Of a stretch of 34,889 nucleotides of DNA, positions 1-9,838 are shown in pieces. The notes under the pieces are model-generated. The model saw only the letters and a program-made list of their open reading frames with translations. It was not told where the DNA came from and ran no database searches. Every line of letters starts with the position of its first letter. Position 1 is the first letter of the stretch. The translations under genes and the position numbers were made by a program. Source of the stretch: a virus; the IMG/VR virus record IMGVR_UViG_3300019776_000257, positions 1 through 34,889 of that record. One strand, 5' to 3'.

Positions 1-4
1 ATAA

Positions 5-94
5 CGGCGTGGGTGTTGGTACACGGGAGGGCCTTATAATCCCTTTAGCACTAGATGAGTGTTCTTGACTTGGTTCGAATCCAAGCACGCCGAC
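5..94 (+). tRNA. tRNA, anticodon UAU (Ile by codon table), with long variable arm
   Basis: The acceptor CGGCGTG pairs fully with CACGCCG, followed by A and an encoded CCA. The D-stem GTGT/ACAC and T-arm CTTGG-TTCGAAT-CCAAG are clear. The anticodon loop is CTTATAA, closed by AGGG/CCCT plus one C-U mismatch, which gives UAU. Some 24 bases form a variable stem-loop (AGCACT/AGTGTT), normal for Leu, Ser or Tyr but not Ile. The amino acid identity is therefore uncertain. Confidence 0.75.
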
Positions 95-111
95 CAATTT
101 GAGTGTATGTA

Positions 112-1191
112 ATGAAATTGAGCTATCTTGACCATCTAATGCACAATCACTACTATGAGAGTGATTACAATTATAAAGAAGGCTGGGGCAAACCAACTCA
201 AAAGTGCGACGAGGGTCTGCTGATTGACATTTGCGATTATTTCTTTGAGAGAATGCTGAAAGAAAATATCGTCAATGGTGCTGATCCTATTACATGGGGT
301 CCAATCATATCGACTCATAAAGAATATGGCATGGCTCTTGTTGAGAAGAAGATACCGCAGCTTCATGATACGCTGAGAAATATGTGTAGCTCTCCTCTTA
401 CGCGCGGCGTTTTTGGCGGAGACTTACTATACGAGTTCTACAAAAAGAACAAACATGAAAGAACAATGTTTGTTTTTGGAGTTTTTGATAAGCTAGTCTC
501 TGTGGCTGAGGCCTCTGGATTATTGCCCTGCTTCAATCCAGAAGATCCTATGTTCAAGGAGATAATGTATCAAAAGCCAGAATACTTCTTAGACTTGATT
601 GCAAAGAAGTATGCCTTTGATATCTCTGCTCCAAAATATGCAGGAGATAATCTAGGAATTGAAACTGAATATGGGCTATATAGCCAGAGAGATATGTTTG
701 CTTTAAACTTGGCGCTGATCGTAGCAGACAAGTATAAAGATAAGAACATAAGCATTTGTGAAATCGGTGGTGGTGTTGGTCATCTGGCTTTCTATCTACA
801 TAGATTAGGATATAGAAACCTGACGATTGTGGATCTGCCGACCATATCAACATTGCAGATGTATTTTCTTGGTACCAATCTCAGTAGATATAACGGTATC
901 ACGTTTATGCCTACTGATGAGTTTACTGGAAACTATGATCTGGTAATTAATGCTGATAGTTTTATTGAAATGAGTCGAGAGAGTGCCAGTCAATATCTTG
1001 ATCTAATCAAGAGAAATGCAAAGCATCTAATCTCTCTCAACCAAGAAACTGGTCCGCATCAATTTGGTCCAGCAGGATTTAGAGTCTGTGATATAACAGA
1101 CATGAAACGAGTTGCTAGGCATATGTCTTGGATCCGCAAGGGTTGGGTATATGAAGAGTATCTAGGAAATAAAGCGAGAGTGACGGAATAG
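112..1191 (+). CDS. Class I SAM-dependent methyltransferase, sugar O-methyltransferase-like
   Basis: This protein of about 359 residues has a Rossmann-type SAM-binding motif near residue 220 (CEIGGGVGHLAFYL), followed by an acidic strand (TIVDLP) expected to bind the SAM ribose. The N-terminal 200 residues do not match a domain I can name. Long two-part proteins of this kind include putative sugar O-methyltransferases, so transfer of a methyl group to a sugar is the best guess, not a certainty. I chose the ATG at 112 because a GAG lies 8 bases upstream; an in-frame GTG at 103 is the other option. It sits between two tRNA genes, and its last 18 bases overlap the 5' end of the next tRNA. It may work with the sugar genes at 10-13 kb. 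Confidence 0.7.
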   Translation: MKLSYLDHLMHNHYYESDYNYKEGWGKPTQKCDEGLLIDICDYFFERMLKENIVNGADPITWGPIISTHKEYGMALVEKKIPQLHDTLRNMCSSPLTRGVFGGDLLYEFYKKNKHERTMFVFGVFDKLVSVAEASGLLPCFNPEDPMFKEIMYQKPEYFLDLIAKKYAFDISAPKYAGDNLGIETEYGLYSQRDMFALNLALIVADKYKDKNISICEIGGGVGHLAFYLHRLGYRNLTIVDLPTISTLQMYFLGTNLSRYNGITFMPTDEFTGNYDLVINADSFIEMSRESASQYLDLIKRNAKHLISLNQETGPHQFGPAGFRVCDITDMKRVARHMSWIRKGWVYEEYLGNKARVTE

Positions 1192-1250
1192 GTATACGTA
1201 TCGGTCTCAAAAACCGAGTTCTGTGGGTTCGAGTCCCACCTTTCGCACCA
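1174..1250 (+). tRNA. tRNA-Leu (anticodon CAA) with short variable loop
   Basis: Acceptor GCGAGAG/CTTTCGC, discriminator A, CCA encoded. Anticodon arm TCGGT-CTCAAAA-ACCGA gives CAA. The D-loop (GAATAGGTAT) is Leu-like, but the variable region is only 5 bases where Leu tRNAs normally carry a long arm. The 5' end lies inside the end of the preceding coding region. Confidence 0.88.
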
Positions 1251-1269
1251 AAAAATATTTTCACAAGAC

Positions 1270-1300
1270 TTGACAATCTAAGTTCCTTGTGATATAAATA
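1270..1300 (+). promoter_or_regulatory. Strong sigma70-type promoter with late-promoter-like -10
   Basis: TTGACA (1270-1275), a 17-base spacer and TATAAA (1293-1298). The -10 region reads TATAAATA, which is also the T4 late-promoter consensus, so it could be used by both host polymerase and a phage late factor. Transcription would start near 1307. Confidence 0.7.
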
Positions 1301-1325
1301 GAATACAAATTAAGAGAAAACGGAA

Positions 1326-1409
1326 ATGAAACAGCAATATTGCCAGATTACAAATAATCAACCAAAAGGTCGCCCATCATGGGCCGACAATAGGGGTGCT
1401 GTGCATTAA
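1326..1409 (+). CDS. Possible 27-residue peptide
   Basis: An ATG at 1326 opens a 27-codon frame (starting MKQQYCQITNN) that ends in TAA at 1407-1409, just before the terminator. The upstream GAGAAAACGGAA is only a weak ribosome site. The frame overlaps a stable hairpin, which argues for an RNA role or for control of this frame. I do not recognise the peptide. The position, alone between a strong promoter and a strong terminator, is the only support. Confidence 0.3.
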   Translation: MKQQYCQITNNQPKGRPSWADNRGAVH

Positions 1410-1433
1410 GTCTTGTTACAGACTTAGATTCTC

Positions 1434-1470
1434 AGAACCCCGAGGCGAAAGTTTCGGGGTTCTTCTTTTT
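1434..1470 (+). terminator. Rho-independent terminator
   Basis: A perfect 10-bp stem (AGAACCCCGA with TCGGGGTTCT, 1434-1443 and 1454-1463) with a 10-base loop is followed by a T-rich run (TTCTTTTT). It separates the short transcript from the main tRNA array. Confidence 0.9.
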
Positions 1471-1513
1471 CTAGATATGCAAAAACTGAATAGCTGCTAT
1501 GCAAAAACAAACA

Positions 1514-1542
1514 TTGAAAAAGACACTAGCAGACATTATATC
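1514..1542 (+). promoter_or_regulatory. Sigma70-type promoter for the tRNA array
   Basis: TTGAAA (1514-1519), 17 bases, TATATC (1537-1542), directly after the terminator and ahead of a long run of tRNA genes without coding sequence. The -10 is imperfect. Confidence 0.5.
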
Positions 1543-1650
1543 TAGTATGTAAGAGATTGAAAAGAGTTTCCCAGCCGCGCGGGCAAGATAGACGCGGTCG
1601 CTGATTGACATTGTTAAGTTCCTGACCTGAGTAAGTCTGTAAACTGCTCA
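1543..1650 (+). other. Non-coding leader of the tRNA array
   Basis: No gene seen. It contains an imperfect hairpin in which CAGC plus CCGCG (from 1572) can pair with CGCGG plus GCTG (to about 1603). It may be the processed 5' leader of the tRNA transcript. Confidence 0.4.
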
Positions 1651-1786
1651 TTCTCATTTCGTCAGAGGTCACTAGTAGGTGGCCACCGCGAAAAGCTAAC
1701 ATTAGTGTAGTGGAAGCACGGCCCTTGACGGGGCAGGCACAAGTTCGAATCTTGTATGTGAAGTGTGACCTCTGACGAAATGAGAA
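1651..1786 (+). repeat. 22-bp perfect inverted repeat enclosing a degenerate tRNA-like sequence
   Basis: Bases 1651-1672 are exactly complementary to 1765-1786. The 92 bases between hold a D-arm-like stretch (AGTGTAGTGGAAGCAC) and a perfect T-arm (ACAAG-TTCGAAT-CTTGT, 1739-1755), but only about 4 acceptor pairs and a 6-base anticodon loop (GCCC-TTGACG-GGGC). No CCA follows. A 10-base palindrome GGTGGCCACC lies at 1678-1687. Confidence 0.85.
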
Positions 1787-1792
1787 ATATAT

Positions 1793-1869
1793 TCTGGTGA
1801 ACTGTCCTAGGTGGAGAGGCGTGACTGTTAATCACGATGCGGTGGGTTCGAATCCTACCACCAGAGCCA
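1793..1869 (+). tRNA. tRNA-Asn (anticodon GUU)
   Basis: Acceptor TCTGGTG/CACCAGA, discriminator G, CCA encoded. Anticodon arm CGTGA-CTGTTAA-TCACG. T-arm GTGGG-TTCGAAT-CCTAC. Confidence 0.95.
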
Positions 1870-1874
1870 ATAAT

Positions 1875-1949
1875 GCGGGTGTAGCTCAGTGGTAGAGCGT
1901 CACGTTGCCAACGTGAATGTCGTGGGTTCGAACCCCATCTCCCGCTCCA
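1875..1949 (+). tRNA. tRNA-Gly (anticodon GCC)
   Basis: Acceptor starts GCGGGTG and ends CCCGC-T-CCA. Anticodon arm TCACG-TTGCCAA-CGTGA. The D-arm (TAGCTCAGTGGTAGAGC) is canonical. Confidence 0.95.
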
Positions 1950-1955
1950 ATTAAT

Positions 1956-2030
1956 GAACCACTAGCATAATGGTAGTGCATCGGACTCTTAATCCGTAAG
2001 GTCGGGATTCGACTTCCCGGTGGTTCTCCA
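1956..2030 (+). tRNA. tRNA-Lys (anticodon CUU)
   Basis: Acceptor GAACCAC/GTGGTTC, CCA encoded. Anticodon arm TCGGA-CTCTTAA-TCCGT. The discriminator is T, unusual for Lys, so charging identity is slightly uncertain. Confidence 0.9.
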
Positions 2031-2036
2031 ATAAAT

Positions 2037-2110
2037 GGTCTTGTAGTGAATGGATATCACACCTCTCTGTCTAAGAGGAGAAGCGAGTTTGAGCCTCGCC
2101 AAGATCGCCA
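2037..2110 (+). tRNA. tRNA-Asp (anticodon GUC)
   Basis: Acceptor GGTCTTG/CAAGATC, discriminator G, CCA encoded. Anticodon arm CCTCT-CTGTCTA-AGAGG. Confidence 0.94.
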
Positions 2111-2183
2111 ATTAGTGCGCCGAGCATCCTTCGGGATACGTTGGGTAGAGTTGACGGCACTCTCGCAGCACGAAAGCCGTTAT

Positions 2184-2260
2184 CGGAGTGTAGCGCAGTC
2201 TGGTAGCGCATCTGCTTTGGGAGCAGAGGGTCCTGGGTTCGAATCCTAGTACTCCGACCA
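2184..2260 (+). tRNA. tRNA-Pro (anticodon UGG)
   Basis: Acceptor CGGAGTG/TACTCCG, discriminator A, CCA encoded. Anticodon arm TCTGC-TTTGGGA-GCAGA. D-arm canonical. The 73-base spacer before it holds a UUCG-capped hairpin near 2125 but no gene. Confidence 0.95.
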
Positions 2261-2311
2261 GTTGGATAAGTTGTGGGTATACTCATTTAGGAACCCTCGC
2301 CTAATTCATAA

Positions 2312-2390
2312 CAGTGTGTGGGGAAGTCTGGCCGTTCCCACCTGCCTTGGAAGCAGGGGCTCGCTGGTTCAAATCCAGCTACACTGACCA
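2312..2390 (+). tRNA. tRNA, anticodon UGG (second Pro-type) with unusual D-arm
   Basis: Acceptor CAGTGTG/TACACTG, discriminator A, CCA encoded. Anticodon arm CCTGC-CTTGGAA-GCAGG places UGG at the anticodon. T-arm GCTGG-TTCAAAT-CCAGC. The D-arm has a GGGA/TCCC stem and an 11-base loop, unlike the other Pro tRNA in the array, so the true identity may differ. Confidence 0.8.
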
Positions 2391-2488
2391 ATTCGTAATA
2401 GTAATTGGACCTATCCCGGGAATGATAACAATGCTATTACAATAATGGCCCCGCGAAGAGGCTAGATAATATCTTCGCGCCTATTAAT
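2391..2488 (+). other. Structured tRNA-array spacer
   Basis: No gene seen. It contains two stems: GTAATAG/CTATTAC (2396-2402 with 2434-2440) and a perfect 8-bp CGCGAAGA/TCTTCGCG (2452-2459 with 2472-2479). Confidence 0.5.
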
Positions 2489-2563
2489 ATCAGTGTGGTG
2501 TAGTGGTAACATGCCGGTCTCCAAAACCGTGCGTCTAGGGTTCGAATCCTTACACTGGTGCCA
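2489..2563 (+). tRNA. tRNA-Trp (anticodon CCA)
   Basis: Acceptor ATCAGTG/CACTGGT, discriminator G, CCA encoded. Anticodon loop CTCCAAA gives CCA. T-arm TAGGG-TTCGAAT-CCTTA. Confidence 0.9.
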
Positions 2564-2691
2564 GTTATCTCGCTTTCTAGATAAGCGAGAGAGGCCCAAT
2601 CGGGATAACATGAGGGGAATACCCGTAAACGTAGGACTTGCTTACCTCTTCAGATCAATGGGCTGAACCTACGGGGCGTACAGAATATCGC
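2564..2691 (+). other. Structured spacer without a recognised gene
   Basis: The stretch can form CTCGCTT/AAGCGAG near its start and CGTAGG/CCTACG around a 35-base interior. Neither a tRNA nor a reading frame with a ribosome site is evident. Confidence 0.4.
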
Positions 2692-2720
2692 TTGACTTTG
2701 CCTTCTTCCTCGTCTATGAT
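2692..2720 (+). promoter_or_regulatory. Sigma70-type promoter
   Basis: TTGACT (2692-2697), 17 bases, TATGAT (2715-2720). Transcription would begin near 2727, giving a short leader to the small gene at 2745 and then the tRNAs beyond. Confidence 0.75.
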
Positions 2721-2744
2721 ATAACAACAATGACGAGGAAGATA

Positions 2745-2960
2745 ATGGGTAAAGTAACACGAAAACAGATTGAAGCTTTGCAGAATGATTTCATCAAAGC
2801 TGGCATTATGCGTGATCCTAATTCGTATAGTGCTGAAGAGTTGAAGCAACTTAATCCAAATATACCGCACTGGTTCATTGATGACCATGTTGCTGTTCGT
2901 GATGGCAAGAAAGCAAAGAGTGATTATAAACGGATCAAGATTGATCTAGACAAGATTTAA
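2745..2960 (+). CDS. Small basic protein of unknown function
   Basis: This 71-residue protein is lysine-rich and has no signal peptide or membrane segment. Its sequence (MGKVTRKQIEALQNDF at the start) suggests a short helical N-terminus and a basic C-terminus; I recognise no family. I chose the ATG at 2745 because GAGGA lies 6 bases upstream. The in-frame ATG at 2730 would leave a leader of only about 3 bases from the promoter at 2692-2720. It is the first gene after a strong host-type promoter, so it is probably expressed early, together with the tRNA-Ala that follows 7 bases later. A role in host takeover is possible but unsupported. Confidence 0.75.
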   Translation: MGKVTRKQIEALQNDFIKAGIMRDPNSYSAEELKQLNPNIPHWFIDDHVAVRDGKKAKSDYKRIKIDLDKI

Positions 2961-2967
2961 GAATAAC

Positions 2968-3042
2968 GGGCCCTTAGTGATAATGGGAGCACAACGCCTT
3001 TGCACGGCGTGGGTAAGAGTTCGATTCTCTTAGGGTCCACCA
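2968..3042 (+). tRNA. tRNA-Ala (anticodon UGC)
   Basis: Acceptor GGGCCCT/AGGGTCC, discriminator A, CCA encoded. Anticodon arm ACGCC-TTTGCAC-GGCGT. Confidence 0.93.
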
Positions 3043-3129
3043 AATTGGCGCCTTCAAAAGCCCATCGTAGGTCTGACTAACCTGTATCGCTAATCAATAC
3101 GGCATACAAAATAAGTCAACTCTTTAAGT

Positions 3130-3259
3130 AGAGTATAGACAGGGGGATAGGCATTAGGCTACTATCTTCCCTACTGATTTTAAGTCAAAGGGGAATACAC
3201 GGCTTATTATCAGGCGATAGAGTGGGTGCGATGCTCACATATCCTCCGGTCTATACTCT
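3130..3259 (+). ncRNA. tRNA-like RNA enclosed by a long imperfect stem
   Basis: Bases 3130-3149 pair with 3240-3259 over 20 positions with one mismatch and one G-U. Inside are a T-arm (GTGGG-TGCGATG-CTCAC, 3222-3238) and an anticodon-like hairpin with a 7-base loop TTTTAAG closed by TGA/TCA. The inner 7 bp of the stem (GGGGGAT/ATCCTCC) can serve as an acceptor, but G and T follow instead of CCA. The sequence before it (3043-3129) shows no gene. Confidence 0.6.
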
Positions 3260-3271
3260 ATAATACAGTTT

Positions 3272-3362
3272 GGGTGACGCAAGTAAGGATGCCTGGTGGC
3301 ATCGGCCGGCTGTAAACCGCCTCCCTAGTGGCAAGAAGTTCGATTCTGTCCGTCACCCACCA
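3272..3362 (+). tRNA. tRNA-Tyr (anticodon GUA)
   Basis: Acceptor GGGTGAC/GTCACCC, discriminator A, CCA encoded. Anticodon loop CTGTAAA. A long variable arm (about 18 bases) fits a bacterial Tyr tRNA. Confidence 0.94.
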
Positions 3363-3366
3363 ATTT

Positions 3367-3440
3367 GATCTGACTACGGAGTGTAACAACCCGTCATGAA
3401 TGTCAGACAGTCAGTCGAATAACTGTGAGACTGACACCAA
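3367..3440 (+). other. Two spacer hairpins, the second ending in ACCA
   Basis: TCTGAC pairs with GTCAGA around a 27-base loop. Then GTCAGTC pairs with GACTGAC over a 12-base loop and is followed at once by ACCA. The second resembles an acceptor minihelix. No gene is seen. Confidence 0.4.
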
Positions 3441-3444
3441 ATAC

Positions 3445-3518
3445 TGGCTTGTAGCTCAATGGTAGAGTAGGCGCTTGATAGGCGTTTGACGAGGGTTCGA
3501 TTCCCTACTGGCCAACCA
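3445..3518 (+). tRNA. tRNA-Ile (anticodon GAU)
   Basis: Acceptor TGGCTTG/CTGGCCA with one T-T mismatch, discriminator A, CCA encoded. Anticodon arm GGCGC-TTGATAG-GCGTT with two G-U pairs. D-arm canonical. Confidence 0.88.
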
Positions 3519-3523
3519 ATCAT

Positions 3524-3590
3524 CAAGGGTTTCTGACGAATGCAGATGCGCGCCTGTAAAATGGGGTTTGATTCCCTGTTCCCTTGGCCA
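3524..3590 (+). tRNA. Degenerate tRNA-like element with CCA end
   Basis: Acceptor CAAGGG/CCCTTG, discriminator G and CCA are present, with a D-arm (CTG/CAG) and a T-arm-like GGGG-TTTGATT-CCCT. The total is only 67 bases. The loop-like CTGTAAA has no pairing anticodon stem. It is probably a decayed or non-decoding tRNA. Confidence 0.5.
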
Positions 3591-3596
3591 ATTCAT

Positions 3597-3670
3597 TGGA
3601 AGATCGTCTAATGGTAGGACGGCGGCCTTTGACTCCGCGAATCTAGGTTCGATCCCTAGTCTTCCAGCCA
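3597..3670 (+). tRNA. tRNA-Gln (anticodon UUG)
   Basis: Acceptor TGGAAGA/TCTTCCA, discriminator G, CCA encoded. Anticodon loop CTTTGAC, with a C-T mismatch at the top of the stem GCGGC/TCCGC. Confidence 0.93.
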
Positions 3671-3727
3671 ATTTTTTGATGTTGTATAGCATATAGTCCA
3701 TAGATGAAGCCGCACTACAAAGTATAC

Positions 3728-3810
3728 GGACTGGTTACCGTAGTGGCGAACGGCGCGGACTTTTAATCCGCTATACAACACCGTGGGTTCGAGTCCCACC
3801 CAGTCCTCCA
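3728..3810 (+). tRNA. tRNA-Lys (anticodon UUU) with enlarged variable loop
   Basis: Acceptor GGACTGG/CCAGTCC, CCA encoded. Anticodon arm GCGGA-CTTTTAA-TCCGC. T-arm GTGGG-TTCGAGT-CCCAC. The variable loop has 11 bases, and 3770-3780, covering it, is complementary over 11 bp to 3680-3690 in the leader. Confidence 0.9.
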
Positions 3811-3816
3811 ATACAA

Positions 3817-3891
3817 GGCGCATTAGTTTAGTGGTTAGAATGCTGGGCTTTCAATCCGGAGAGAAGGGTTCAATTCCCTTATGCGCTGCCA
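3817..3891 (+). tRNA. tRNA-Glu (anticodon UUC)
   Basis: Acceptor GGCGCAT/ATGCGCT, discriminator G, CCA encoded. Anticodon arm CTGGG-CTTTCAA-TCCGG. T-arm AAGGG-TTCAATT-CCCTT. Confidence 0.93.
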
Positions 3892-3905
3892 ATCAAAGAG
3901 GTAAT

Positions 3906-4037
3906 ATGTTTAAGCTTACGTCACTATCACTAGCAGGTGCAAACTCTCTTGTTAAACAGTATAAGAGATTTGGCTTCAAGCATATATCTACAAAATACGA
4001 CAATAAGAAAGAAGTGTATATTCATACGTTCAAGTAG
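3906..4037 (+). CDS. Small basic protein of unknown function
   Basis: This 43-residue frame begins MFKLTSLSLAGANS and ends with basic and aromatic residues (KKEVYIHTF). AGAGGT lies 8 bases before the ATG, a good ribosome site, and the frame fills the gap between two tRNA genes exactly: its stop at 4035-4037 is one base before the next tRNA. I do not recognise it. The N-terminus is mildly hydrophobic but too short for a confident signal peptide. Confidence 0.6.
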   Translation: MFKLTSLSLAGANSLVKQYKRFGFKHISTKYDNKKEVYIHTFK

Positions 4038-4038
4038 T

Positions 4039-4114
4039 GCGGGATAGAGAAGCGGTCTATCTCACCGGCCTCATAAGTCGGAGATCGTGCGGTTCGAATC
4101 CCACTCCCGCAACA
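4039..4114 (+). tRNA. tRNA-Met (anticodon CAU) lacking an encoded CCA
   Basis: Acceptor GCGGGAT/CTCCCGC with one mismatch. Anticodon arm CCGGC-CTCATAA-GTCGG. The 3' end reads A-ACA instead of A-CCA, and the T-stem has a bulged C (GTG-C-GG with CCCAC). It could be elongator Met, or Ile if lysidine is made at C34. Confidence 0.82.
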
Positions 4115-4116
4115 TC

Positions 4117-4169
4117 GAAGTCCTCAGGATACTAAATAGTTTGTAAACCCTATTGTATCCTGAGGCTTC
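4117..4169 (+). promoter_or_regulatory. Hairpin hiding the GIY-YIG ribosome site, with a late promoter in its loop
   Basis: CCTCAGGATAC (4122-4132) pairs perfectly with GTATCCTGAGG (4155-4165), extended by GAAG/CTTC. The only Shine-Dalgarno, GAGG at 4162-4165, lies in the 3' arm, 7 bases before the ATG. The loop contains CTAAATA (4132-4138), a late-promoter-like box; a transcript starting near 4147 would lack the 5' arm and leave the site free. Confidence 0.7.
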
Positions 4170-4172
4170 CTA

Positions 4173-4718
4173 ATGTTCTATACTATTTACAAAACAACCA
4201 ATCTTGTGAATGGAAAGTTCTACATCGGTAAGCACAAGACCAAAGACTTGGACGATGGATACATGGGATCAGGCAAAATATTGAAACATGCCATCTCCAA
4301 GTATGGTCTTGATAACTTTCACAAAGAAATTCTTCACATATGCGAATCTGAAAAACAGATGAACGCACTAGAGAAGATTTTGGTTGTGCCTGACATAGAA
4401 ATGAACTATAATCTGTGTGACGGCGGTAAAGGTGGTTTCGGATACATAAACGCCAATCAAGAGATAGTGGCTAGACGAGACGCAAGAGAAAACAAGATAG
4501 CGGGCCGTTTGGCAGCCAATGCTAAAGGTGCCCATATCAAAGGTTCGCAAAAACATTCTCAACTGTTGAAAACTGATCCAGAATATAGAGAAAAGTATCT
4601 GGCTAAATTATGTGAAGCGCAAAGGATAGCCGAAAGAAAAGATTGTCCTTATTGTGAAATGAAAAATCTGAATGTCGGCAACTACAAACGACATTTGAAA
4701 GCAAAACACCAATTCTGA
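4173..4718 (+). CDS. GIY-YIG endonuclease with C-terminal C2H2 zinc finger (Seg/I-TevI type)
   Basis: This 181-residue protein starts with the GIY-YIG nuclease signature: YTIYK at 3-7 and FYIG at 16-19, with conserved GSGK and a later Asn/Glu region. The C-terminus has a zinc finger with Cys158, Cys161, His174 and His179, likely to bind DNA. Free-standing nucleases of this family cut DNA lacking the gene and spread by repair, and are frequent between T4-type genes. Here it sits between two tRNA clusters with no intron evidence. A hairpin covers its ribosome site (4117-4169), the type of control known for T4 I-TevI. The stop codon lies within the 5' arm of the following tRNA-like element. Confidence 0.92.
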   Translation: MFYTIYKTTNLVNGKFYIGKHKTKDLDDGYMGSGKILKHAISKYGLDNFHKEILHICESEKQMNALEKILVVPDIEMNYNLCDGGKGGFGYINANQEIVARRDARENKIAGRLAANAKGAHIKGSQKHSQLLKTDPEYREKYLAKLCEAQRIAERKDCPYCEMKNLNVGNYKRHLKAKHQF

Positions 4719-4795
4719 CTGTCCGTAAGGAGGGAGGTCCCCCGCAGCGCCGCGATAAACGGCTGTTCGCTGAACACCTGTCGGTCAGAATACCA
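4712..4795 (+). tRNA. Non-canonical tRNA-like element with long acceptor and CCA
   Basis: ATTCTGAC (4712-4719) pairs with GTCAGAAT (4784-4791), and the helix continues through a G-U and a G-C. A discriminator A and CCA follow. Interior hairpins (GGGAGGTCCC, GCCG/CGGC around 4752-4762, GTTC-GCT-GAAC) do not match D, anticodon or T arms; no TTCRANY T-loop exists. It overlaps the end of the GIY-YIG gene. Confidence 0.45.
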
Positions 4796-4801
4796 ATAAA
4801 T

Positions 4802-4878
4802 GGAGTCGTAGCAAAACGGTTCAATGCGCGGGACTGCAAATCCTTGAGGTGATGGTTCAAATCCATTCGACTCCTCCA
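4802..4878 (+). tRNA. tRNA-Cys (anticodon GCA)
   Basis: Acceptor GGAGTCG/CGACTCC, discriminator T, CCA encoded. Anticodon loop CTGCAAA. Confidence 0.92.
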
Positions 4879-4884
4879 ATTCAG

Positions 4885-4945
4885 TTTAGGTGAAGATGTA
4901 GAATGCGCCTGCCCGAAAGTCTTCTAATGGAGTGGCGCCCAACCT
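4885..4945 (+). other. Structured spacer closed by a 7-bp stem
   Basis: TTTAGGT pairs with ACCTAAA across about 50 bases that include GAAGA/TCTTC and GCGCC/GGCGC pairings. No CCA, T-loop or reading frame is seen. Confidence 0.35.
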
Positions 4946-4953
4946 AAATTCAT

Positions 4954-5027
4954 GCTGCATTAGTTCAATGGTAGAACGCTGGTTTGTGGAGCCAGTTACA
5001 GTAGTTCGATTCTACTATGCAGTGCCA
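4954..5027 (+). tRNA. tRNA-His (anticodon GUG)
   Basis: Acceptor GCTGCAT/ATGCAGT, CCA encoded. Anticodon arm CTGGT-TTGTGGA-GCCAG. The usual G at -1 is not encoded. Confidence 0.9.
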
Positions 5028-5063
5028 TTTGCTGAAGTAAACGAGATACCTGCGCCACGATTG

Positions 5064-5150
5064 GTGGACAGACTCCTAGAAAAGCGTGAAGCTAACGCCA
5101 GACTTAGAGTTAAACGTTACAACGGCCGTACGTTTAGGAGTATGATATGA
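5064..5150 (+). CDS. Possible 28-residue basic peptide
   Basis: An open frame after tRNA-His encodes a strongly basic peptide (ending GRTFRSMI) whose stop codon overlaps the next start as ATGA, the usual form of translational coupling. The start is unclear: GTG at 5064 or TTG at 5061, neither with a ribosome site. It could equally be a non-coding leader. Confidence 0.25.
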   Translation: MDRLLEKREANARLRVKRYNGRTFRSMI

Positions 5151-5374
5151 CACTATATCTAATTGCAGGTAAAAGCGGACCCAACAGGTCTGTTTCACTA
5201 TATCATACTAACAAACATCTACAAAATTTTCATTCTAACATAGAAGAAGAAGTTGATAAGGTATATTCATCAAATATCGCGGCAGGCATTTATGTTGCCC
5301 AACGCGGCTATCAGAATGGTTATGATGAAATAGGTTTTGTAGTATTACACATTAAAGATGCCGCTATCGTCTAG
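5147..5374 (+). CDS. Small protein of unknown function
   Basis: A 75-residue protein preceded by TTTAGGAG, a strong ribosome site 7 bases before ATG 5147. No signal peptide or membrane segment is seen; alternating hydrophobic stretches (GFVVLHIKD) suggest a small beta-rich fold. I recognise no family. Its last 15 bases overlap the 5' acceptor of the following tRNA-Glu, so mRNA and tRNA cannot both be processed intact from one transcript at that point. Lying inside the array, it is likely co-transcribed with the tRNAs. Confidence 0.75.
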   Translation: MTLYLIAGKSGPNRSVSLYHTNKHLQNFHSNIEEEVDKVYSSNIAAGIYVAQRGYQNGYDEIGFVVLHIKDAAIV

Positions 5375-5436
5375 ATTGGATAGGACGCCGCCCTCTCAAG
5401 GTGGTAGCACGGGTTTGAGTCCCGTTAGCGGTGCCA
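5360..5436 (+). tRNA. tRNA-Glu (anticodon CUC)
   Basis: Acceptor GCCGCTA/TAGCGGT, discriminator G, CCA encoded. Anticodon arm CCGCC-CTCTCAA-GGTGG. The 5' end overlaps the coding region before it. Confidence 0.93.
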
Positions 5437-5441
5437 ATTAT

Positions 5442-5502
5442 GGGCTGGCAGTAAGAAGGTCTATCGCGCGTGATGTGGGTTCGATTCCCACCCAGTCCAC
5501 CA
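5442..5502 (+). tRNA. Truncated tRNA-like element: acceptor and T-arm with CCA, no anticodon arm
   Basis: GGGCTGG pairs with CCAGTCC across all 7 positions (one G-U), with A and CCA following. The T-arm GTGGG-TTCGATT-CCCAC is perfect. Only 26 bases separate acceptor and T-stem, too few for D plus anticodon arms; ATC/GAT is the only pairing. It is 61 bases in all. Confidence 0.6.
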
Positions 5503-5505
5503 TAT

Positions 5506-5579
5506 TGCTCAATCGTCTAACGGTAGGACACCTGACTCTGACTCAGGGTATTGTGGTTCGAATCCATGTTGAGCAGCCA
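5506..5579 (+). tRNA. tRNA-Gln (anticodon CUG)
   Basis: Acceptor TGCTCAA/TTGAGCA, discriminator G, CCA encoded. Anticodon arm CCTGA-CTCTGAC-TCAGG. Confidence 0.95.
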
Positions 5580-5639
5580 AATTCGTAGGCAACTGCGAAT
5601 TGACAATGCAACTTCAGCATTGTTACCACTATCATGAAT

Positions 5640-5731
5640 GCATCCGTATCCCCCTTGGCTACGAACCAGGAGAAAGGTAACTGGAAATGGTTGAAAGACT
5701 AATGCAGGTTCGAATCCTGTCGGGTGCTCCA
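5640..5731 (+). tRNA. Atypical tRNA-like element with CCA; anticodon unclear
   Basis: Acceptor GCATCCG/CGGGTGC, discriminator T, CCA and a perfect T-arm GCAGG-TTCGAAT-CCTGT. At 92 bases it has the length of a long-variable-arm tRNA, and GGTT-GAAA-GACT could be that arm. One hairpin, CTTGG-CTACGAA-CCAGG, would give ACG (Arg) but leaves only 7 bases for a D-arm. I cannot fix the anticodon. Confidence 0.5.
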
Positions 5732-5752
5732 TGATATTCAAAGGAAAATCTA

Positions 5753-6121
5753 ATGAAGGTATTACTAACTGCTTTGACCGCAGCATTTTTGATAACTGCG
5801 GCGTTTCTACCTAGTCATGCGTCTACAATGAAAGCATCATGGTATGACTGTGCAACTCCCGGACAATGTTCCAAGAGTAAGCGTACAGCTAATGGTGAGC
5901 GTTTCAATCCAAACGCATTGACAGCAGCACATAAATCATTACCCTTTGGTACACGATTGAAGGTGACCCACAAAGGTCGTTCTATCATCGTGAGGATTAA
6001 TGATCGTGGCCCATTTGTAAAGGGAAGGCATTTAGACCTTTCCCGTGCCGCAGCCCGTAGCATCGGTTGCCATGGAGTCTGCGTTGTGCAAGTTCAAGTT
6101 TTAGGCAAAAAGAAGTCTTGA
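5753..6121 (+). CDS. RlpA-like secreted double-psi beta-barrel protein (first copy)
   Basis: This 122-residue protein has a signal peptide (about 1-23, ending PSHA) and then one double-psi beta-barrel domain (residues 28-118) of the RlpA family. The family motifs are clear: [26 protein letters not shown] and INDRGPF. His60 and Asp84 match the residues needed for lytic transglycosylase activity in active RlpA, so it may cleave peptidoglycan glycan strands in the periplasm. It lacks the SPOR domain of host RlpA. Four cysteines (33, 39 and two near GCHGVC) could form disulphides. AAGGA precedes the ATG. A paralogue lies at 13427. Roles in lysis, or in remodelling the wall during infection, are both possible. 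Confidence 0.88.
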
Positions 6122-6146
6122 CACTTGCACTAAAATAGTATACTAT
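6118..6146 (+). promoter_or_regulatory. Sigma70-type promoter overlapping the RlpA-like stop codon
   Basis: TTGACA (6118-6123), 17 bases, TACTAT (6141-6146). It would drive tRNA-Ser and the three or four genes after it. The leader to 6277 has only an 11-codon frame and a short hairpin (AGTGG/CCACT). Confidence 0.8.
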
Positions 6147-6277
6147 ATACACATGATGAGAATAGCGGTAAGCAAGGTATTCGTGTAAGAGGTTTGTGAG
6201 TGGACTGTGTGTACTGGAAACTCTCGCATATCATAAAAGTGGAGGGCGTAACCACTATAAGAAATCGCATCGATATT

Positions 6278-6367
6278 GGAAGTGTGGCCGAGAGGCTTAA
6301 GGCGCCAGTCTTGAAAACTGGAGGGCCCGCAAGGGTTCCGTGGGTTCGAATCCTACCGCTTCCGCCA
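6278..6367 (+). tRNA. tRNA-Ser (anticodon UGA)
   Basis: Starts GGAAGTG, ends CGCTTCC-G-CCA. Anticodon arm CCAGT-CTTGAAA-ACTGG. A long variable arm (GGGCCCGCAAGGGTTCC) is present. Confidence 0.95.
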
Positions 6368-6389
6368 CTTTTAACTTAGGAAAAGTCCA

Positions 6390-6884
6390 ATGATTAGAAA
6401 GCAATTAAACATCGAAGAAGTCAAGGCATTCATCAATGCACAGACACCAGAAACAAAAGTATATCTAGGTGGTGACTCCGAACGCTTTCAGATTGACGGT
6501 GTTTGGTATGCTGACTACATCAACGTTGTCGTTGTTCACAAGAACGGCAAGAACGGTTGTCGCGTGTTTGGTGGTATCGTGCGTGAGCGCGACTATGACC
6601 AGCAAAAGGACAAGCCACGTATGCGTCTGATGAACGAAGTCATGAAGACTGCACAGCTTTACATGGACTTGTATGATGTGCTTGAGGATCGTGAAACTGA
6701 AATACATCTTGACATTAACCCAAATAAAGAGTATGGTAGTTCATGTGTCATCAATGAAGCAGTTGGATATATTCGTGGTATGTGTAACATCGTTCCGCTT
6801 GTGAAGCCAAATGCTTGGGCTGCTTCTTACTGCGCTGATAGATACAAGGACGCTATTCAACATATTGAACATAAGGTAGCTTAA
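6390..6884 (+). CDS. RNase H-like nuclease family protein (DUF458-like)
   Basis: A 164-residue cytosolic protein resembling predicted RNase H-fold nucleases. An early strand ends in Asp (KVYLGGDSERF), followed by paired strands (YINVVVVHKNGKNGCRVFGG), an acidic helix, a second acidic strand (EIHLDINP) and a late aspartate (CADRYKDA). These are the usual positions of metal-binding acids. Such proteins are thought to act on RNA or RNA-DNA hybrids; no substrate can be read here. AGGAAAA lies ahead of the ATG. It follows tRNA-Ser by 22 bases and the next gene begins one base after its stop, so the three are probably co-transcribed from the promoter at 6118. Confidence 0.65.
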   Translation: MIRKQLNIEEVKAFINAQTPETKVYLGGDSERFQIDGVWYADYINVVVVHKNGKNGCRVFGGIVRERDYDQQKDKPRMRLMNEVMKTAQLYMDLYDVLEDRETEIHLDINPNKEYGSSCVINEAVGYIRGMCNIVPLVKPNAWAASYCADRYKDAIQHIEHKVA

Positions 6885-6885
6885 A

Positions 6886-7311
6886 ATGGCAAAGTTTCTT
6901 GTTATGGTTTGTGTCGTGATTGCCGCAATCTTTATGATTGTCACTGGTGCAAAAGCAGAAGTGTTTATCACGATTGATAAGTCTACTCAGCAAATGTATG
7001 TCGAAACGCCTACCGATTCATACGTGTGGAAAGTTTCGACTGGGCGAAAGGGCTATCGTACACCCACTGGAGAGTTCAAGCCTTATCTTCTGAAGACTAT
7101 GCACTATTCGCGCAAGTATGATAATGCTCCGATGCCTCACTCTATCTTCTTTCATGGTGGTTATGCTATTCATGCTACAAATGCAGTAAACAAGCTTGGT
7201 GCACCAGCTTCTCACGGTTGCATTCGGCTTAGTCCTCAAAATGCTCGTTGGCTTTATCGTATTGTAAACGAGTATGGCAAGGAAGATACATATATCAGGA
7301 TCGTTGAGTAA
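6886..7311 (+). CDS. L,D-transpeptidase (YkuD family), secreted
   Basis: This 141-residue protein has a signal peptide (1-24, ending GAKA) and a YkuD domain. The catalytic motif is complete: HGGYAIH at 90-96 and SHGCIRL at 109-115, with Cys112 as the nucleophile and His110 and His96 in support; TPTGEF (59-64) is also conserved. In bacteria these enzymes form 3-3 peptidoglycan cross-links or attach proteins to the wall in the periplasm. A phage copy could change the host wall during infection, for example to block superinfection or delay lysis (inference). It starts one base after the preceding stop and lies beside another secreted gene. Confidence 0.92.
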   Translation: MAKFLVMVCVVIAAIFMIVTGAKAEVFITIDKSTQQMYVETPTDSYVWKVSTGRKGYRTPTGEFKPYLLKTMHYSRKYDNAPMPHSIFFHGGYAIHATNAVNKLGAPASHGCIRLSPQNARWLYRIVNEYGKEDTYIRIVE

Positions 7312-7321
7312 AGGACATATC

Positions 7322-7831
7322 ATGATTAGAAAGACATTGATTGCCGCGGCTGCTGCTATCGCACTCTTAGCAACTCCCGCATATGCTTTGACACAGTTTT
7401 ATGACTGGAGTTCTGGGCAGTGGAGAATTGAAGGTTACTACGGCAAAAAGGAATTCTGTTCAGCAAAGACATATTGGGACAATGGTTCTTATGTCTCACT
7501 ATTTAACATGAGAGGTTCGGATATCTTTTCTCTTTATGTTCACAATGTAGCTTGGGACATGGCTGGCGACTATGGTGCATACTATGACGGTATAATCTCA
7601 TTTGACGGTCGTGCTGGTAGCGGTGGTGGACCAATGTCTTTTGAGTTGAAGGATCCACAGACAATTATCATTCGTAATCTTACCAATGACTTTTTGCGGA
7701 ACTGGATTGAGTTCCGAGAAATGACTATCATAATGCCGAATGGTATTTCTGATATGCGTGTCGGTCTTGTAGGTACTGCTGACGCTGTTAATGCTTTTGC
7801 AAATTGCATTGATATGTTGAACGGCAATTAA
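7322..7831 (+). CDS. Secreted protein of unknown function
   Basis: A 169-residue protein with a textbook signal peptide (1-22, MIRKTLIAAAAAIALLATPAYA cut after AYA). The mature part is rich in aromatic residues and Gly and has two cysteines, in a pattern that suggests a beta-sandwich. I recognise no family. AAAGGA stands 8 bases before ATG 7322; an upstream in-frame ATG at 7274 would destroy the signal peptide, so 7322 is preferred. It follows the L,D-transpeptidase by 10 bases and is probably made with it, acting in the periplasm. Confidence 0.8.
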   Translation: MIRKTLIAAAAAIALLATPAYALTQFYDWSSGQWRIEGYYGKKEFCSAKTYWDNGSYVSLFNMRGSDIFSLYVHNVAWDMAGDYGAYYDGIISFDGRAGSGGGPMSFELKDPQTIIIRNLTNDFLRNWIEFREMTIIMPNGISDMRVGLVGTADAVNAFANCIDMLNGN

Positions 7832-7838
7832 CATAACA

Positions 7839-7928
7839 GGAAGGTTGGCCGAGAGGCCGAAGGCACCTCACTGCTAACGAGGCGTACTAGCGATAGTACC
7901 GTGGGTTCGAATCCCACACCTTCCGCCA
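7839..7928 (+). tRNA. tRNA-Ser (anticodon GCU)
   Basis: Acceptor GGAAGGT/ACCTTCC, discriminator G, CCA encoded. Anticodon loop CTGCTAA. A long variable arm is present. Confidence 0.94.
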
Positions 7929-7935
7929 TTTTTAT

Positions 7936-7997
7936 GTGGGTGCATCGCCAACAAGCTTGATGGCTGCTAAGTCGAGTAGTGCCTCCAGCCCACACCA
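7936..7997 (+). tRNA. Short tRNA-like element with CCA
   Basis: GTGGGT pairs with GCCCAC (6 bp, one G-U), then A and CCA. Inside, CATC/GATG forms a stem and CTGCTAA recurs without a matching stem. No T-loop is seen. It is 62 bases long. Confidence 0.4.
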
Positions 7998-8016
7998 ACA
8001 CATTAGGAGAAAACAA

Positions 8017-8163
8017 ATGAGTAAGGATTGTGGCTGCGGCCGTTCACCAACTGGTAAGTGTATTGGTTGGCACAACTTGACAAACGAGCAATATTCTGCT
8101 AAACTACAAGAATACAATAAGCAACAATTAACGGAATCAGCTCCGCAACTGCTGAGAGATTAA
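8017..8163 (+). CDS. Small cysteine-rich protein (CxCGRSPTGxCxGWH motif)
   Basis: A 48-residue protein starting MSKDCGCGRSPTGKCIGWHN. Three cysteines and one histidine lie within 15 residues, in a pattern that recalls CDGSH-type iron-sulphur or zinc sites, though it does not match the CDGSH consensus. Short bacterial proteins with this motif exist, but I know of no assigned function. TTAGGAGA lies ahead of the ATG. It ends two bases before tRNA-Phe, so the transcript must be processed there. Confidence 0.75.
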   Translation: MSKDCGCGRSPTGKCIGWHNLTNEQYSAKLQEYNKQQLTESAPQLLRD

Positions 8164-8165
8164 AA

Positions 8166-8241
8166 GCTGCCTTGGTATAGCTGGTGCGTACATACGCCTG
8201 AAGAGCGTGGGGACTCTGTTCGATTCAGAGAGGCAGCACCA
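8166..8241 (+). tRNA. tRNA-Phe (anticodon GAA)
   Basis: Acceptor GCTGCCT/AGGCAGC, discriminator A, CCA encoded. Anticodon arm TACGC-CTGAAGA-GCGTG. Confidence 0.94.
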
Positions 8242-8277
8242 ATGCCAGCGGCATGGCTATTAGTCGCCGCCTCCAAC

Positions 8278-8337
8278 GCTGCCACGGGGAAAGGGTCTAC
8301 GATATCGAAAGATACTTAACAGTAGACGGCAGCACCA
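8278..8337 (+). ncRNA. Minihelix-like RNA with ACCA end
   Basis: GCTGCC (8278-8283) pairs with GGCAGC (8328-8333), followed by ACCA. Directly against it, GTCTAC (8295-8300) pairs with GTAGAC (8322-8327), which would stack on the first helix as a T-arm does on an acceptor. A TATC-GAAA-GATA hairpin caps it. No anticodon arm is present. GCTGCC could also pair with the 3' strand of the preceding tRNA-Phe. Confidence 0.45.
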
Positions 8338-8342
8338 ATAAT

Positions 8343-8418
8343 GCCGCTGGGACGGTATTGGAAATCGTGCGCGCCTCATAAGCGCGATAACCCAGTTCGA
8401 AACTTGGCAGCGGCACCA
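8343..8418 (+). tRNA. tRNA-Met (anticodon CAU), or Ile if modified
   Basis: Acceptor GCCGCTG/CAGCGGC, discriminator A, CCA encoded. Anticodon arm CGCGC-CTCATAA-GCGCG. It lacks initiator features. With another CAU tRNA at 4039, one of the two may be the lysidine-modified AUA reader. Confidence 0.92.
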
Positions 8419-8429
8419 AATTAGAAATG

Positions 8430-8625
8430 CTGACTCCGACGGGAGTTGGCCGAGTGCAAGGAAATGGCTGGACGCAAAGACCGGCTAACTTGGCTAGATG
8501 TTGTGGTGACCCAGTGTGACTAACGAGAGTTAGAGACGTTGCGCCTCACACCAAGAGGATCTAGGCTGTCGCGTTGAACAGGTATCTGTGCCGTGACTTG
8601 TGGGTGTACCCGAATCCCACCTCAC
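8430..8625 (+). ncRNA. Large structured non-coding region, possible ncRNA
   Basis: No reading frame. It holds hairpins ACTCC-GACG-GGAGT (8433-8446), GCTGG/CCGGC with loop ACGCAAAGA (8467-8485), CTAAC-GAGA-GTTAG (8520-8533) inside GTGTGA/TCACAC, a long-range CTAGAT/ATCTAG (8494-8499 with 8559-8564) and a T-arm-like GTGGG/CCCAC with an enlarged loop (8600-8620). The D-arm-like TTGGCCGAGTGCAAGG suggests descent from a Ser-type tRNA. Confidence 0.4.
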
Positions 8626-8643
8626 CTTATTAATTTTTAGCGA

Positions 8644-8650
8644 ATAAATA
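8644..8650 (+). promoter_or_regulatory. Late-promoter-like ATAAATA
   Basis: ATAAATA lies 36 bases before the small membrane gene and is followed by a CGGTC/GACCG hairpin. It matches the late box repeated at other gene starts here. Confidence 0.5.
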
Positions 8651-8685
8651 GTACACGGTCAATCAAGACCGAATGAGGTACTAAT

Positions 8686-8859
8686 ATGCTAAACACACTA
8701 GTCGTTTTAGTTTTAGTTGCAGCCGTTCTTTGGGTCGTTTGGACTCTATGGAAGAATGGTTGGGATATGAAGAAGGCAGGCGCTGCTCTTGTAGCTGCTG
8801 TAGCTGCTTGGTGGTTGTGGGTCTCTGACTCAATCACTTCATTGACTTCAGGTTTGTAA
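8686..8859 (+). CDS. Small two-segment membrane protein
   Basis: A 57-residue protein. Residues 3-22 form a hydrophobic segment rich in Val, Leu and Trp; a short Lys-containing turn follows, then a second Ala/Trp-rich segment at about 31-46. GAGG lies 7 bases before ATG. No family recognised. Small hairpin membrane proteins of this size in phages include holin-like and superinfection-exclusion proteins, but the lysis genes seem to be at 28 kb. A late-promoter-like box stands upstream. Confidence 0.75.
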   Translation: MLNTLVVLVLVAAVLWVVWTLWKNGWDMKKAGAALVAAVAAWWLWVSDSITSLTSGL

Positions 8860-8875
8860 TTCAGAAACCGCCGTT

Positions 8876-8963
8876 GGCCCGTGGCGGTATATAAGTCGGC
8901 TCACCGTAAGGGGGCTGGGTAAAATAGTTCGGATTCCAAGCCGTACTCGCTAACGGGCCGCCA
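8876..8963 (+). tRNA. Non-canonical tRNA-like element with perfect acceptor and CCA
   Basis: GGCCCGT pairs perfectly with ACGGGCC (8953-8959), then G and CCA. At 88 bases it is as long as a class II tRNA, but no T-arm can form next to the acceptor. Internal stems are CGG/CCG and GGCTGG/CCaAGCC. The anticodon cannot be read. Confidence 0.5.
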
Positions 8964-8970
8964 GATTTAT

Positions 8971-9045
8971 AGCCGATTAGTTCACTGGCAGAACACCTCG
9001 TTTACACCGAGGGTGTAGGGAGTTCGATTCTCTCATCGGCTACCA
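8971..9045 (+). tRNA. tRNA-Val (anticodon UAC)
   Basis: Acceptor AGCCGAT/ATCGGCT, discriminator A, CCA encoded. Anticodon arm CCTCG-TTTACAC-CGAGG. Confidence 0.95.
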
Positions 9046-9062
9046 TTTTTAGAAAGAGTAAT

Positions 9063-9236
9063 ATGGAAAGTCATAAAAGGTCAATCGTCAAGTCTATTAC
9101 TTGGCGTATCATTGCAACACTGATTGCTGCTTACTGGGTTGGCTTTCACATTGCTATTCTAATGAATATAGTCCAAACCATTGCATATTACTTCCACGAA
9201 AGATTGTGGGTGCATGTGAAATGGGGAAAAGAATAA
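9063..9236 (+). CDS. DUF2061-like small membrane protein
   Basis: A 57-residue protein with the features of the DUF2061 family: a basic N-terminus (MESHKRSIVKSITWR), a hydrophobic stretch with TxxAAYWVG, a second one, and the ending YYFHERLWVHVKWG. The family is a predicted inner-membrane protein of unknown function found in bacteria, so this copy probably came from a host. AAAGAG lies ahead of ATG 9063. It ends two bases before tRNA-Leu. Confidence 0.85.
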   Translation: MESHKRSIVKSITWRIIATLIAAYWVGFHIAILMNIVQTIAYYFHERLWVHVKWGKE

Positions 9237-9238
9237 AA

Positions 9239-9320
9239 GCGAGTATGGTGAAATGGCAGACACGCTAGTCTTAGGAACTAGTGCTTCGGCGTGGGGGTTC
9301 AAGTCCCTCTACTCGCACCA
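9239..9320 (+). tRNA. tRNA-Leu (anticodon UAG)
   Basis: Starts GCGAGTA, ends TACTCGC-A-CCA. Anticodon arm CTAGT-CTTAGGA-ACTAG. It has a normal long variable arm (TGCTTCGGCG). Confidence 0.95.
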
Positions 9321-9325
9321 TTAAT

Positions 9326-9399
9326 GCCTCTATAGTATAGTGGTAGAACAGCCCTTTGGTAGGGGGCTGGCTCCAGTTCGATTCTGGATAGAGGCACCA
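9326..9399 (+). tRNA. tRNA-Thr (anticodon GGU)
   Basis: Acceptor GCCTCTA/TAGAGGC, discriminator A, CCA encoded. Anticodon arm GCCCT-TTGGTAG-GGGGC. Confidence 0.92.
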
Positions 9400-9405
9400 G
9401 ATAAC

Positions 9406-9479
9406 GCCCGCTTAGTTAAGTGGCATAACATCGGTTTTGTAATCCGAGGTTGGGGGTTCGATTCCCTCAGCGGGCACCA
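9406..9479 (+). tRNA. tRNA-Thr (anticodon UGU)
   Basis: Acceptor GCCCGCT/AGCGGGC, discriminator A, CCA encoded. Anticodon loop TTTGTAA. Last tRNA of the array. Confidence 0.94.
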
Positions 9480-9496
9480 TTTTTAGGAACTTGATA

Positions 9497-9838
9497 ATGC
9501 GTATACTTGTATGCGGCGGCCGCGACTTCTCAGACTCCAATCTTGTCTCAACAGTTCTCAACGAATATCAACCTCACAATCCAACAATCATTCACGGTGC
9601 CGCTAAAGGCGCAGACAGTCTAGCCAACTATTGGGCATATGAAAATGACTGTGATGTTATAGCATATCCGGCCAATTGGGATAAGTATGGTAAGAGAGCT
9701 GGATACATTCGCAATACTCAAATGCTCAACGAAGGCAAACCAGATTTGGTAATTGCTTTTCCGGGTGGTAAAGGCACTCAGATGATGATTAACTTGGCCG
9801 AAGCGGCTAACGTGCCAGTGATAAGGATAAATGATTAA
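9497..9838 (+). CDS. DUF2493/YspA-like SLOG-family protein
   Basis: This 113-residue protein shows the DUF2493 pattern: MRILVCGGRDF at the start, IIHGAAKGADSLA near residue 33, the PANWDKYGKRAG segment near 58, and LVIAFPGGKGTQMMINLA near 88. It is a one-domain Rossmann-like fold of the SLOG superfamily, whose members bind nucleotides or nucleotide-derived ligands. The function is unknown, though SLOG proteins often serve as ligand sensors in defence or stress systems. ATG 9497 is chosen because AGGA lies 8 bases before it; TTG 9491 is in frame. The next gene starts within its stop (TAATG), showing coupling. Confidence 0.9.
   Translation: MRILVCGGRDFSDSNLVSTVLNEYQPHNPTIIHGAAKGADSLANYWAYENDCDVIAYPANWDKYGKRAGYIRNTQMLNEGKPDLVIAFPGGKGTQMMINLAEAANVPVIRIND

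Follow-up and report, generated by a model that had tools for sequence, protein, structure and literature searches.

Stem-locked tRNA-like RNAs in the spacers of a phage tRNA array: a non-decoding tRNA mimic and possible decoy

The tRNA cluster of phage T4 ends in two small non-tRNA RNAs, the stable RNAs C and D (species 1 and 2; NC_000866, 70908-71171), which are assigned to the late class and whose function is called unknown in a 2022 paper (PMC9697503). A canonical T-arm (CCGGG UUCGAAU CCCGG) can be read in the sequence of RNA C, whose predicted fold is branched. GOLLD and ROOL, two structured RNAs of unknown function, are described near phage tRNA islands (PMC12286853). Phage tRNAs are also reported to counter tRNA-cutting defences, and in the case of tRNA-Tyr of T5 and retron-Eco7 a phage tRNA-gene region has been turned against a host defence (PMC11555353). 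In an animal virus, adenovirus VA RNA I combines a terminal stem with a pseudoknot-anchored central domain, has a proposed tRNA-gene origin and antagonises an antiviral sensor (PMC6599070).

The window analysed here is the whole IMG/VR virus record IMGVR_UViG_3300019776_000257 (34,889 bases), the first 9.5 kb of which form a tRNA array with 28 tRNAs called by ARAGORN. Rfam returned 24 matches at gathering scores. A manA RNA (RF01745, 57.7 bits), a family reported from marine metagenomes and T4-like cyanophages (PMC2864571), lies at 8432-8628. The element of interest, E2, occupies positions 3128-3261 of the plus strand. It starts 85 nt past tRNA-Ala(tgc) (2968-3042) and ends 10 nt before a tRNA-Tyr(gta) (3272-3362, plus strand) that ARAGORN missed and that was read from the sequence; at the matching place in three relatives, tRNA-Tyr(gta) was found by ARAGORN.

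The T4 RNAs C and D, small non-tRNA RNAs of a tRNA cluster as E2 is, are the nearest known kind, and E2 is set apart from them by its long closing stem and its knot. Neither sequence comparison nor the E2 covariance model R1 gave a match on the T4 stretch. In design, VA RNA is the closest, as E2 has a VA-like architecture of a terminal stem and a pseudoknotted centre; the comparison is one of how such RNAs might work and implies no homology. VA RNA differs in that an apical stem carries its PKR-binding activity, for which the terminal stem is not needed. GOLLD and ROOL, which share with E2 the neighbourhood of phage tRNAs, differ in being several hundred nucleotides long and forming self-assembling cages, and neither had a match in the window at Rfam gathering scores. 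Compared with tRNA (RF00005), E2 has a T-arm, a D-like hairpin and a place in a tRNA array, but it lacks an anticodon loop and CCA and carries an acceptor extension of about 20 bp and a pseudoknot. Whereas T5 tRNA-Tyr is a functional replacement tRNA, E2 is not chargeable as drawn and would therefore have to act as a decoy.

Relatives were sought in 70 related loci retrieved via the protein encoded at 6390-6884. BlastN identified E2 in L034 and L022, and a hairpin scan added L030. All four copies sit between tRNA-Ala(tgc) and tRNA-Tyr(gta), and the gap from stem to tRNA-Tyr is 10 nt in the window and, by ARAGORN starts, 10, 7 and 51 nt in L034, L022 and L030, respectively. A separate contig, L213, carries a sequence identical to that of L034. 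E2 is present at only 4 of 22 distinct Ala-to-Tyr/Ile sites, indicating that it is dispensable, and R1 found no fifth member in 79 sources plus 42 whole records, so its distribution is sporadic. BlastN against 50,697 phage records gave only short chance pieces. The near search (window positions 1-24000, 24,000 of the 34,889 bases) and the distant search (1500-5800) returned mainly tRNA genes. A pattern of the E2 stem matched eight stretches, comprising two re-finds (L084, the contig of L030, and L085, the contig of L022) and six without any tRNA, and a pattern of the knot matched eleven, of which three were real (L085, L216, the contig of L034, and L213) and eight looked like chance.

E2 is almost certainly a real structured non-coding RNA. 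Its closing stem P1 (plus strand, 5' arm 3128-3149, 3' arm 3240-3261) spans 22 positions with one A-G mismatch and two G-U pairs, including the outermost, which agrees with the long pairing with a single mismatch noticed in the first-pass annotation. None of 400 dinucleotide shuffles of window positions 1-9600 yielded a stem scoring at least 18 at the E2 loop size (best 16.5); in the same scoring, E2 reaches 18 and the neighbouring element E1 reaches 22. The fold as a whole has a z of −5.65, with 0 of 200 shuffles equally stable. Among E2 relatives the stem measures 20-23 bp, and 9 of 21 scored P1 pairs changed on both sides in the four relatives.

Inside the closing stem, the fold comprises a 3-bp D-like hairpin, a T-arm and a hairpin with a loop that folds back to form a pseudoknot, all on the plus strand. 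The D-like hairpin (3150-3160, GGC/GCU) was paired in 12 of 12 cells in the manual alignment and in 66.7% in the MAFFT alignment. Helix P3 joins CUAUC (3162-3166) to GAUAG (3216-3220), and its four versions (CUAUC/GAUAG, UCAUC/GAUGG, GUAUC/GAUAC and UUGUC/GACAA) left all cells paired while 3 of 5 pairs changed on both sides. The pseudoknot strand UCCCU (3168-3172) pairs with GGGGA (3190-3194) in the loop of hairpin P4 in both alignments; again all cells were paired, with the strand reading UCCCU, UCCCU, UCCCC and UCUCC, the partner reading GGGGA three times and GGAGA once, and C-G replaced by U-A in L030. P4 (3174-3213) takes the place of the anticodon arm. Its sequence is unconserved among the four, and 3 of 5 pairs of its lower helix changed on both sides. 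The T-arm (3222-3238, loop UGCGAUG, with UGC for the usual UUC) bears out the first-pass annotation on this point; it lies one nucleotide from the closing stem and is stacked on the acceptor as in tRNA. The loop follows UGCRANN and the arm has 5 bp in three of the four sequences, and L030 has the loop UUCAAUU on 3 bp.

The manual alignment, whose letters match the DNA in all four sequences, and the MAFFT alignment were made independently. In the latter, 93.3% of 180 cells were paired and 20 of 46 pairs changed on both sides, a number reached by 0 of 500 shuffles, and sliding the partners by one to three columns left 0-3 such pairs; this covariation rests on four distinct sequences. R1, which was built from the four, scores E2 at 131 bits on the plus strand and 36 on the minus strand, these being its training sequences. 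A covariance model of E1 and E2 together had been suggested beforehand. The E2-only model was built and run without gaining a fifth member, and no joint model was made, since the two are separate families that are not alignable as one and a joint model would be unsuitable and mislead. Their common ground is the closing-stem design and the T-arm.

The second family, E1 (1651-1786, plus strand), was the first stem-locked tRNA-like RNA of the array. Its 5' arm (1651-1672) pairs with 1765-1786 over 22 perfect base pairs, followed by a small hairpin (1678-1687) with GGCCA invariant in 10 of 10 sequences and a tRNA-like core (1696-1763) that matches RF00005 with 38.1 bits; no CCA is encoded. In an alignment of 10 sequences (A5), which left out L036 (a near-copy of L035), L043 and L045 (copies of L042), L218, L221 and L226 (near-copies of L024) and the wrong-strand rows of alignments A2 and A4, 98.5% of cells were paired and 17 of 33 pairs changed on both sides. 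The D-arm (75.4%) and T-arm (69.3%) are far more identical than the anticodon arm (28.5%), suggesting that selection holds the elbow and not the anticodon. A lax E1 pattern gave mostly chance hits among the matches listed, and a stricter one gave 12 stretches, 11 of them with at least three ARAGORN tRNAs. A closing stem in Erythrobacter phage L02 (L243, 16177-16309) contains CTCTTCGTCAG, very like the E1 stem motif, and might be an E1 relative. A third family, E3, has stems with CUCUUC or variants in the same neighbourhood of relatives, and its arms, as read from the sequence, often end in tetraloops instead of anticodon loops.

The first-pass annotation had also taken two such RNAs in one array for a class and not chance, and this view gained support, with far more than two elements and covarying relatives for both E1 and E2. 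Hairpins scoring at least 17 with loops of 50-140 nt were counted at one locus per distinct array: the 303,772 array bases contain 27 such enclosed hairpins, 262,816 bases from elsewhere contain 2, and five rounds of shuffling the arrays produced one. Of the related loci, 33 have 15 or more tRNAs (some are near-copies); 20 of these hold at least one stem-enclosed RNA and 13 show no such stem. In a second lineage, found through an alignment, 56 loci have 8 or more tRNAs, and 38 of them hold one when the whole locus is counted. Altogether, 86 distinct enclosed elements lie inside tRNA stretches, and the closing stems were 20-26 bp in all 24 sequences measured.

A strict T-arm is present in 25 of the 86 elements, compared with 28 of 1,720 shuffled loops (1.6%) and 3 of 86 reverse complements. 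It ends 0-1 nt from the stem, as in tRNA, in 15 of these 25. The other 61 bodies fail this test; among them, E2 of L030 and several E3 members miss by a detail of loop or stem, and others look unrelated to tRNA. Mimicry of tRNA thus accounts for part of the class at most. A stem motif is common to 16 elements of the second lineage (70% identity, 55% in shuffled stems), and their bodies have 53% identity (52% in shuffled ones), with 11 of 120 body pairs above 60%. A near-identical stem motif, CCATATTGAAGCACATT, surrounds different bodies in L295, L297, L287 and others of L249-L313, often several times per genome and beginning in the CCA end of the upstream tRNA.

Named phages also carry enclosed hairpins, which were detected in 3 of 11 stretches: Erythrobacter phage L02 (four), Synechococcus phage BUCT-ZZ01 (five) and Vibrio phage D479 (two). 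None was seen in the stretches of T4, DLP6, X1, RcXuper, Pyxpy01, Aeromonas phage 65, Atu_ph07 and S-PM2. In D479 (L246, 14498-15932), two of four annotated 'tRNAs' of 116-124 nt are stem-enclosed, and the four share a hairpin followed by an ACCGCA/CAGCA-type stretch in place of the anticodon arm. At L060 3812-3909 and L240 26076-26179 (BUCT-ZZ01 among them), the only tRNA-His(gtg) called by ARAGORN has a closing stem of about 20 bp and no CCA, and its body looks like an ordinary tRNA, so a long stem does not always mean a non-decoding RNA. No description of stem-enclosed tRNA-like RNAs in phage arrays was found in the literature searched.

Two array spacers contain other recurrent sequences. 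The spacer after tRNA-Trp (2563-2695) has conserved blocks (CTTTCTAGATAAG..., ACATGAGGG..., GGGCT.AACCT...) that recur in L010, L031, L042 and L047; it has no Rfam match and is probably another structured RNA family. A spacer at 3363-3444, GATCTGACTACG...ATGTCAGACAGTCAGTCGAATAACTGTGAGACTGAC, recurs between tRNAs in L010, L023, L042 and L046.

Several simpler accounts of E2 were considered and rejected. The perfect or near-perfect inverted repeats would fit a DNA palindrome that serves in recombination, in homing or as an origin and whose arms stay alike through template switching and not RNA selection, and homing-type genes are nearby (the ORF at 2730-2960 overlaps a stretch resembling Seg-like endonuclease genes). 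However, the closing stems of 24 sequences from the three families, in which related members are not independent, contain 24 G-U and 0 A-C among 561 cells, and the E2 structure contains 15 G-U and 0 A-C among 168. Such a bias is not expected of a DNA palindrome and identifies the RNA in tRNA sense as the selected molecule. The strand asymmetry largely refutes the palindrome, and the R1 scores by strand also speak against it; in addition, the pairs of P3, the pseudoknot, P4 and the T-arm covary as well, and E2 keeps one site in the same sense as the tRNAs. We consider this account highly improbable. A decayed tRNA gene in a chance hairpin would explain a body without a standard anticodon arm, but it has next to no probability given the result of the 400 shuffles, the recurrence of the element and, decisively, the compensatory changes.

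A tRNA that reads UAA through a UUA loop, or a divergent tRNA matured after the stem is cut, was also considered, and ARAGORN calls several enclosed elements tRNAs in relatives (L024, L060 and L076). The first-pass annotation saw an anticodon-like hairpin with the loop TTTTAAG (3178-3184), but these bases are paired inside the longer pseudoknotted hairpin, and the fold supported by all four E2 sequences has no 7-nt anticodon loop. The corresponding columns read TTTTAAG, ATAAATG, ACCTA-G and AAGGTTA (mean identity 28.6%), so that the proposed UUA anticodon occurs in one of four sequences, within the region replaced by the knotted domain. Moreover, TAA is the commonest stop codon, ending 20 of the 36 ORFs counted, which leaves UAA suppression unsupported; it was rejected on this ground and for the unconserved loop. 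CCA is encoded by 26 of the 28 ARAGORN tRNAs in the window, the exceptions being E1 and tRNA-Met (4038-4113). E2 encodes none, and the position is buried in the stem, as had been noted before. ARAGORN called no tRNA at E2, and RF00005 gave no match in 3050-3280 at E up to 10, on which a tRNA with a hidden anticodon was rejected too. Neither ARAGORN nor Rfam gave a tmRNA in the window. Locked in a long stem and with a knotted domain in the anticodon's place, E2 cannot serve as a normal tRNA; we regard it as very probably non-decoding and a suppressor or sense tRNA as extremely improbable.

E2 has a tRNA-like structure, is selected in the tRNA sense, recurs at one site and has lost decoding features. 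The best overall explanation, to which we give a probability of roughly 0.4, is a non-decoding, stem-locked tRNA mimic that is released in tRNA processing and probably acts as a decoy. E2 would be co-transcribed with the phage tRNAs and would fold into a tRNA-like body with a T-arm and a D-like hairpin, in which the acceptor stem continues into a closing helix of 20-23 bp and a pseudoknotted hairpin replaces the anticodon arm. This helix would block normal tRNA maturation, leaving no free CCA and burying the RNase P site, and would seal the ends. RNase P is reported to be inhibited by leader pairing with the 3' RCCA (PMC9433436), and on that account E2, with its 20-bp extension, should escape tRNA maturation. 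Maturation cuts at the neighbours, for example where tRNA-Tyr starts 10 nt further on, probably contribute to freeing a stable closed RNA. Among the 86 elements, the next tRNA begins at most 15 nt past the 3' arm in 54, and the 5' arm begins within the 3' end of the upstream tRNA in 30 (by 4-5 nt in 22); in such arrangements, what is left once the flanking tRNAs are excised would be a closed hairpin RNA. For E2 this fits the downstream side only; upstream, 85 nt separate its 5' end from tRNA-Ala, so that its limits are not set by tRNA cuts alone.

A tRNA-like, uncharged and end-sealed RNA is best explained as a decoy. E2 would most likely bind and occupy a tRNA- or dsRNA-binding host factor, and the most plausible targets would be tRNA-cleaving or RNA-sensing anti-phage defences. 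For E2 itself we hold the decoy role tentatively, at somewhat less than even odds. Extending it to the whole class is rather doubtful: phage tRNA arrays would then contain a modular class in which a closing helix, about 20-26 bp long and in some cases bearing a common sequence motif, surrounds interchangeable bodies (tRNA mimics, pseudoknots and others). These RNAs would be freed by the cuts that mature the tRNAs on either side and would act as decoys against host defences, as the equivalent in bacterial viruses of the adenovirus VA RNAs.

The chief rival to the decoy reading places the function in the stem, which would be a site for RNase III or a similar enzyme that cuts the pre-tRNA transcript, with the body a passive element or a fold chaperone. 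RNase III favours stems of about two helical turns, and all 24 measured stems have such a length. The 16 elements of the second lineage, whose shared stem motif encloses bodies no more alike than shuffled ones, also fit a stem that carries the function. In contrast, conservation and covariation extend to the bodies of E1 and E2, down to a pseudoknot for which a passive spacer would have no use, and the 13 of 33 related tRNA-rich loci that show no such stem likewise count against it. The RNase III family PF14622 was found in 0 of 28 related records, although these are fragments and a host enzyme would suffice. We consider this processing role unlikely; both readings may hold, with the stem as a shared handle and the body as the working part. 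Unlikely to a similar degree is a trans-acting regulatory RNA that pairs with an mRNA or binds the ribosome, the latter for instance by way of the GGGGA/GGAGA loop, which is rich in purines, resembles a Shine-Dalgarno sequence and is masked by the pseudoknot. One or other of these loops is present in all four E2 sequences, and T4 rnaC and rnaD, late small RNAs (PMC9697503), stand at the end of the tRNA cluster, with a T-arm in rnaC; yet neither has a long closing stem, and the T4 stretch contained 0 enclosed hairpins.

Phage tRNA arrays tend to be treated as plain lists of tRNAs. The structured RNAs described here form a recurrent class in the spacers and are overlooked or misnamed by programs that search for tRNAs, as in the annotations of Vibrio phage D479. 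These stem-enclosed RNAs give the T4 RNAs C and D relatives in kind, and members in three named phages, Erythrobacter phage L02, Synechococcus phage BUCT-ZZ01 and Vibrio phage D479, make the class testable at the bench. If they are decoys, they would offer a direct way of learning which defences aimed at tRNA or RNA these phages encounter.
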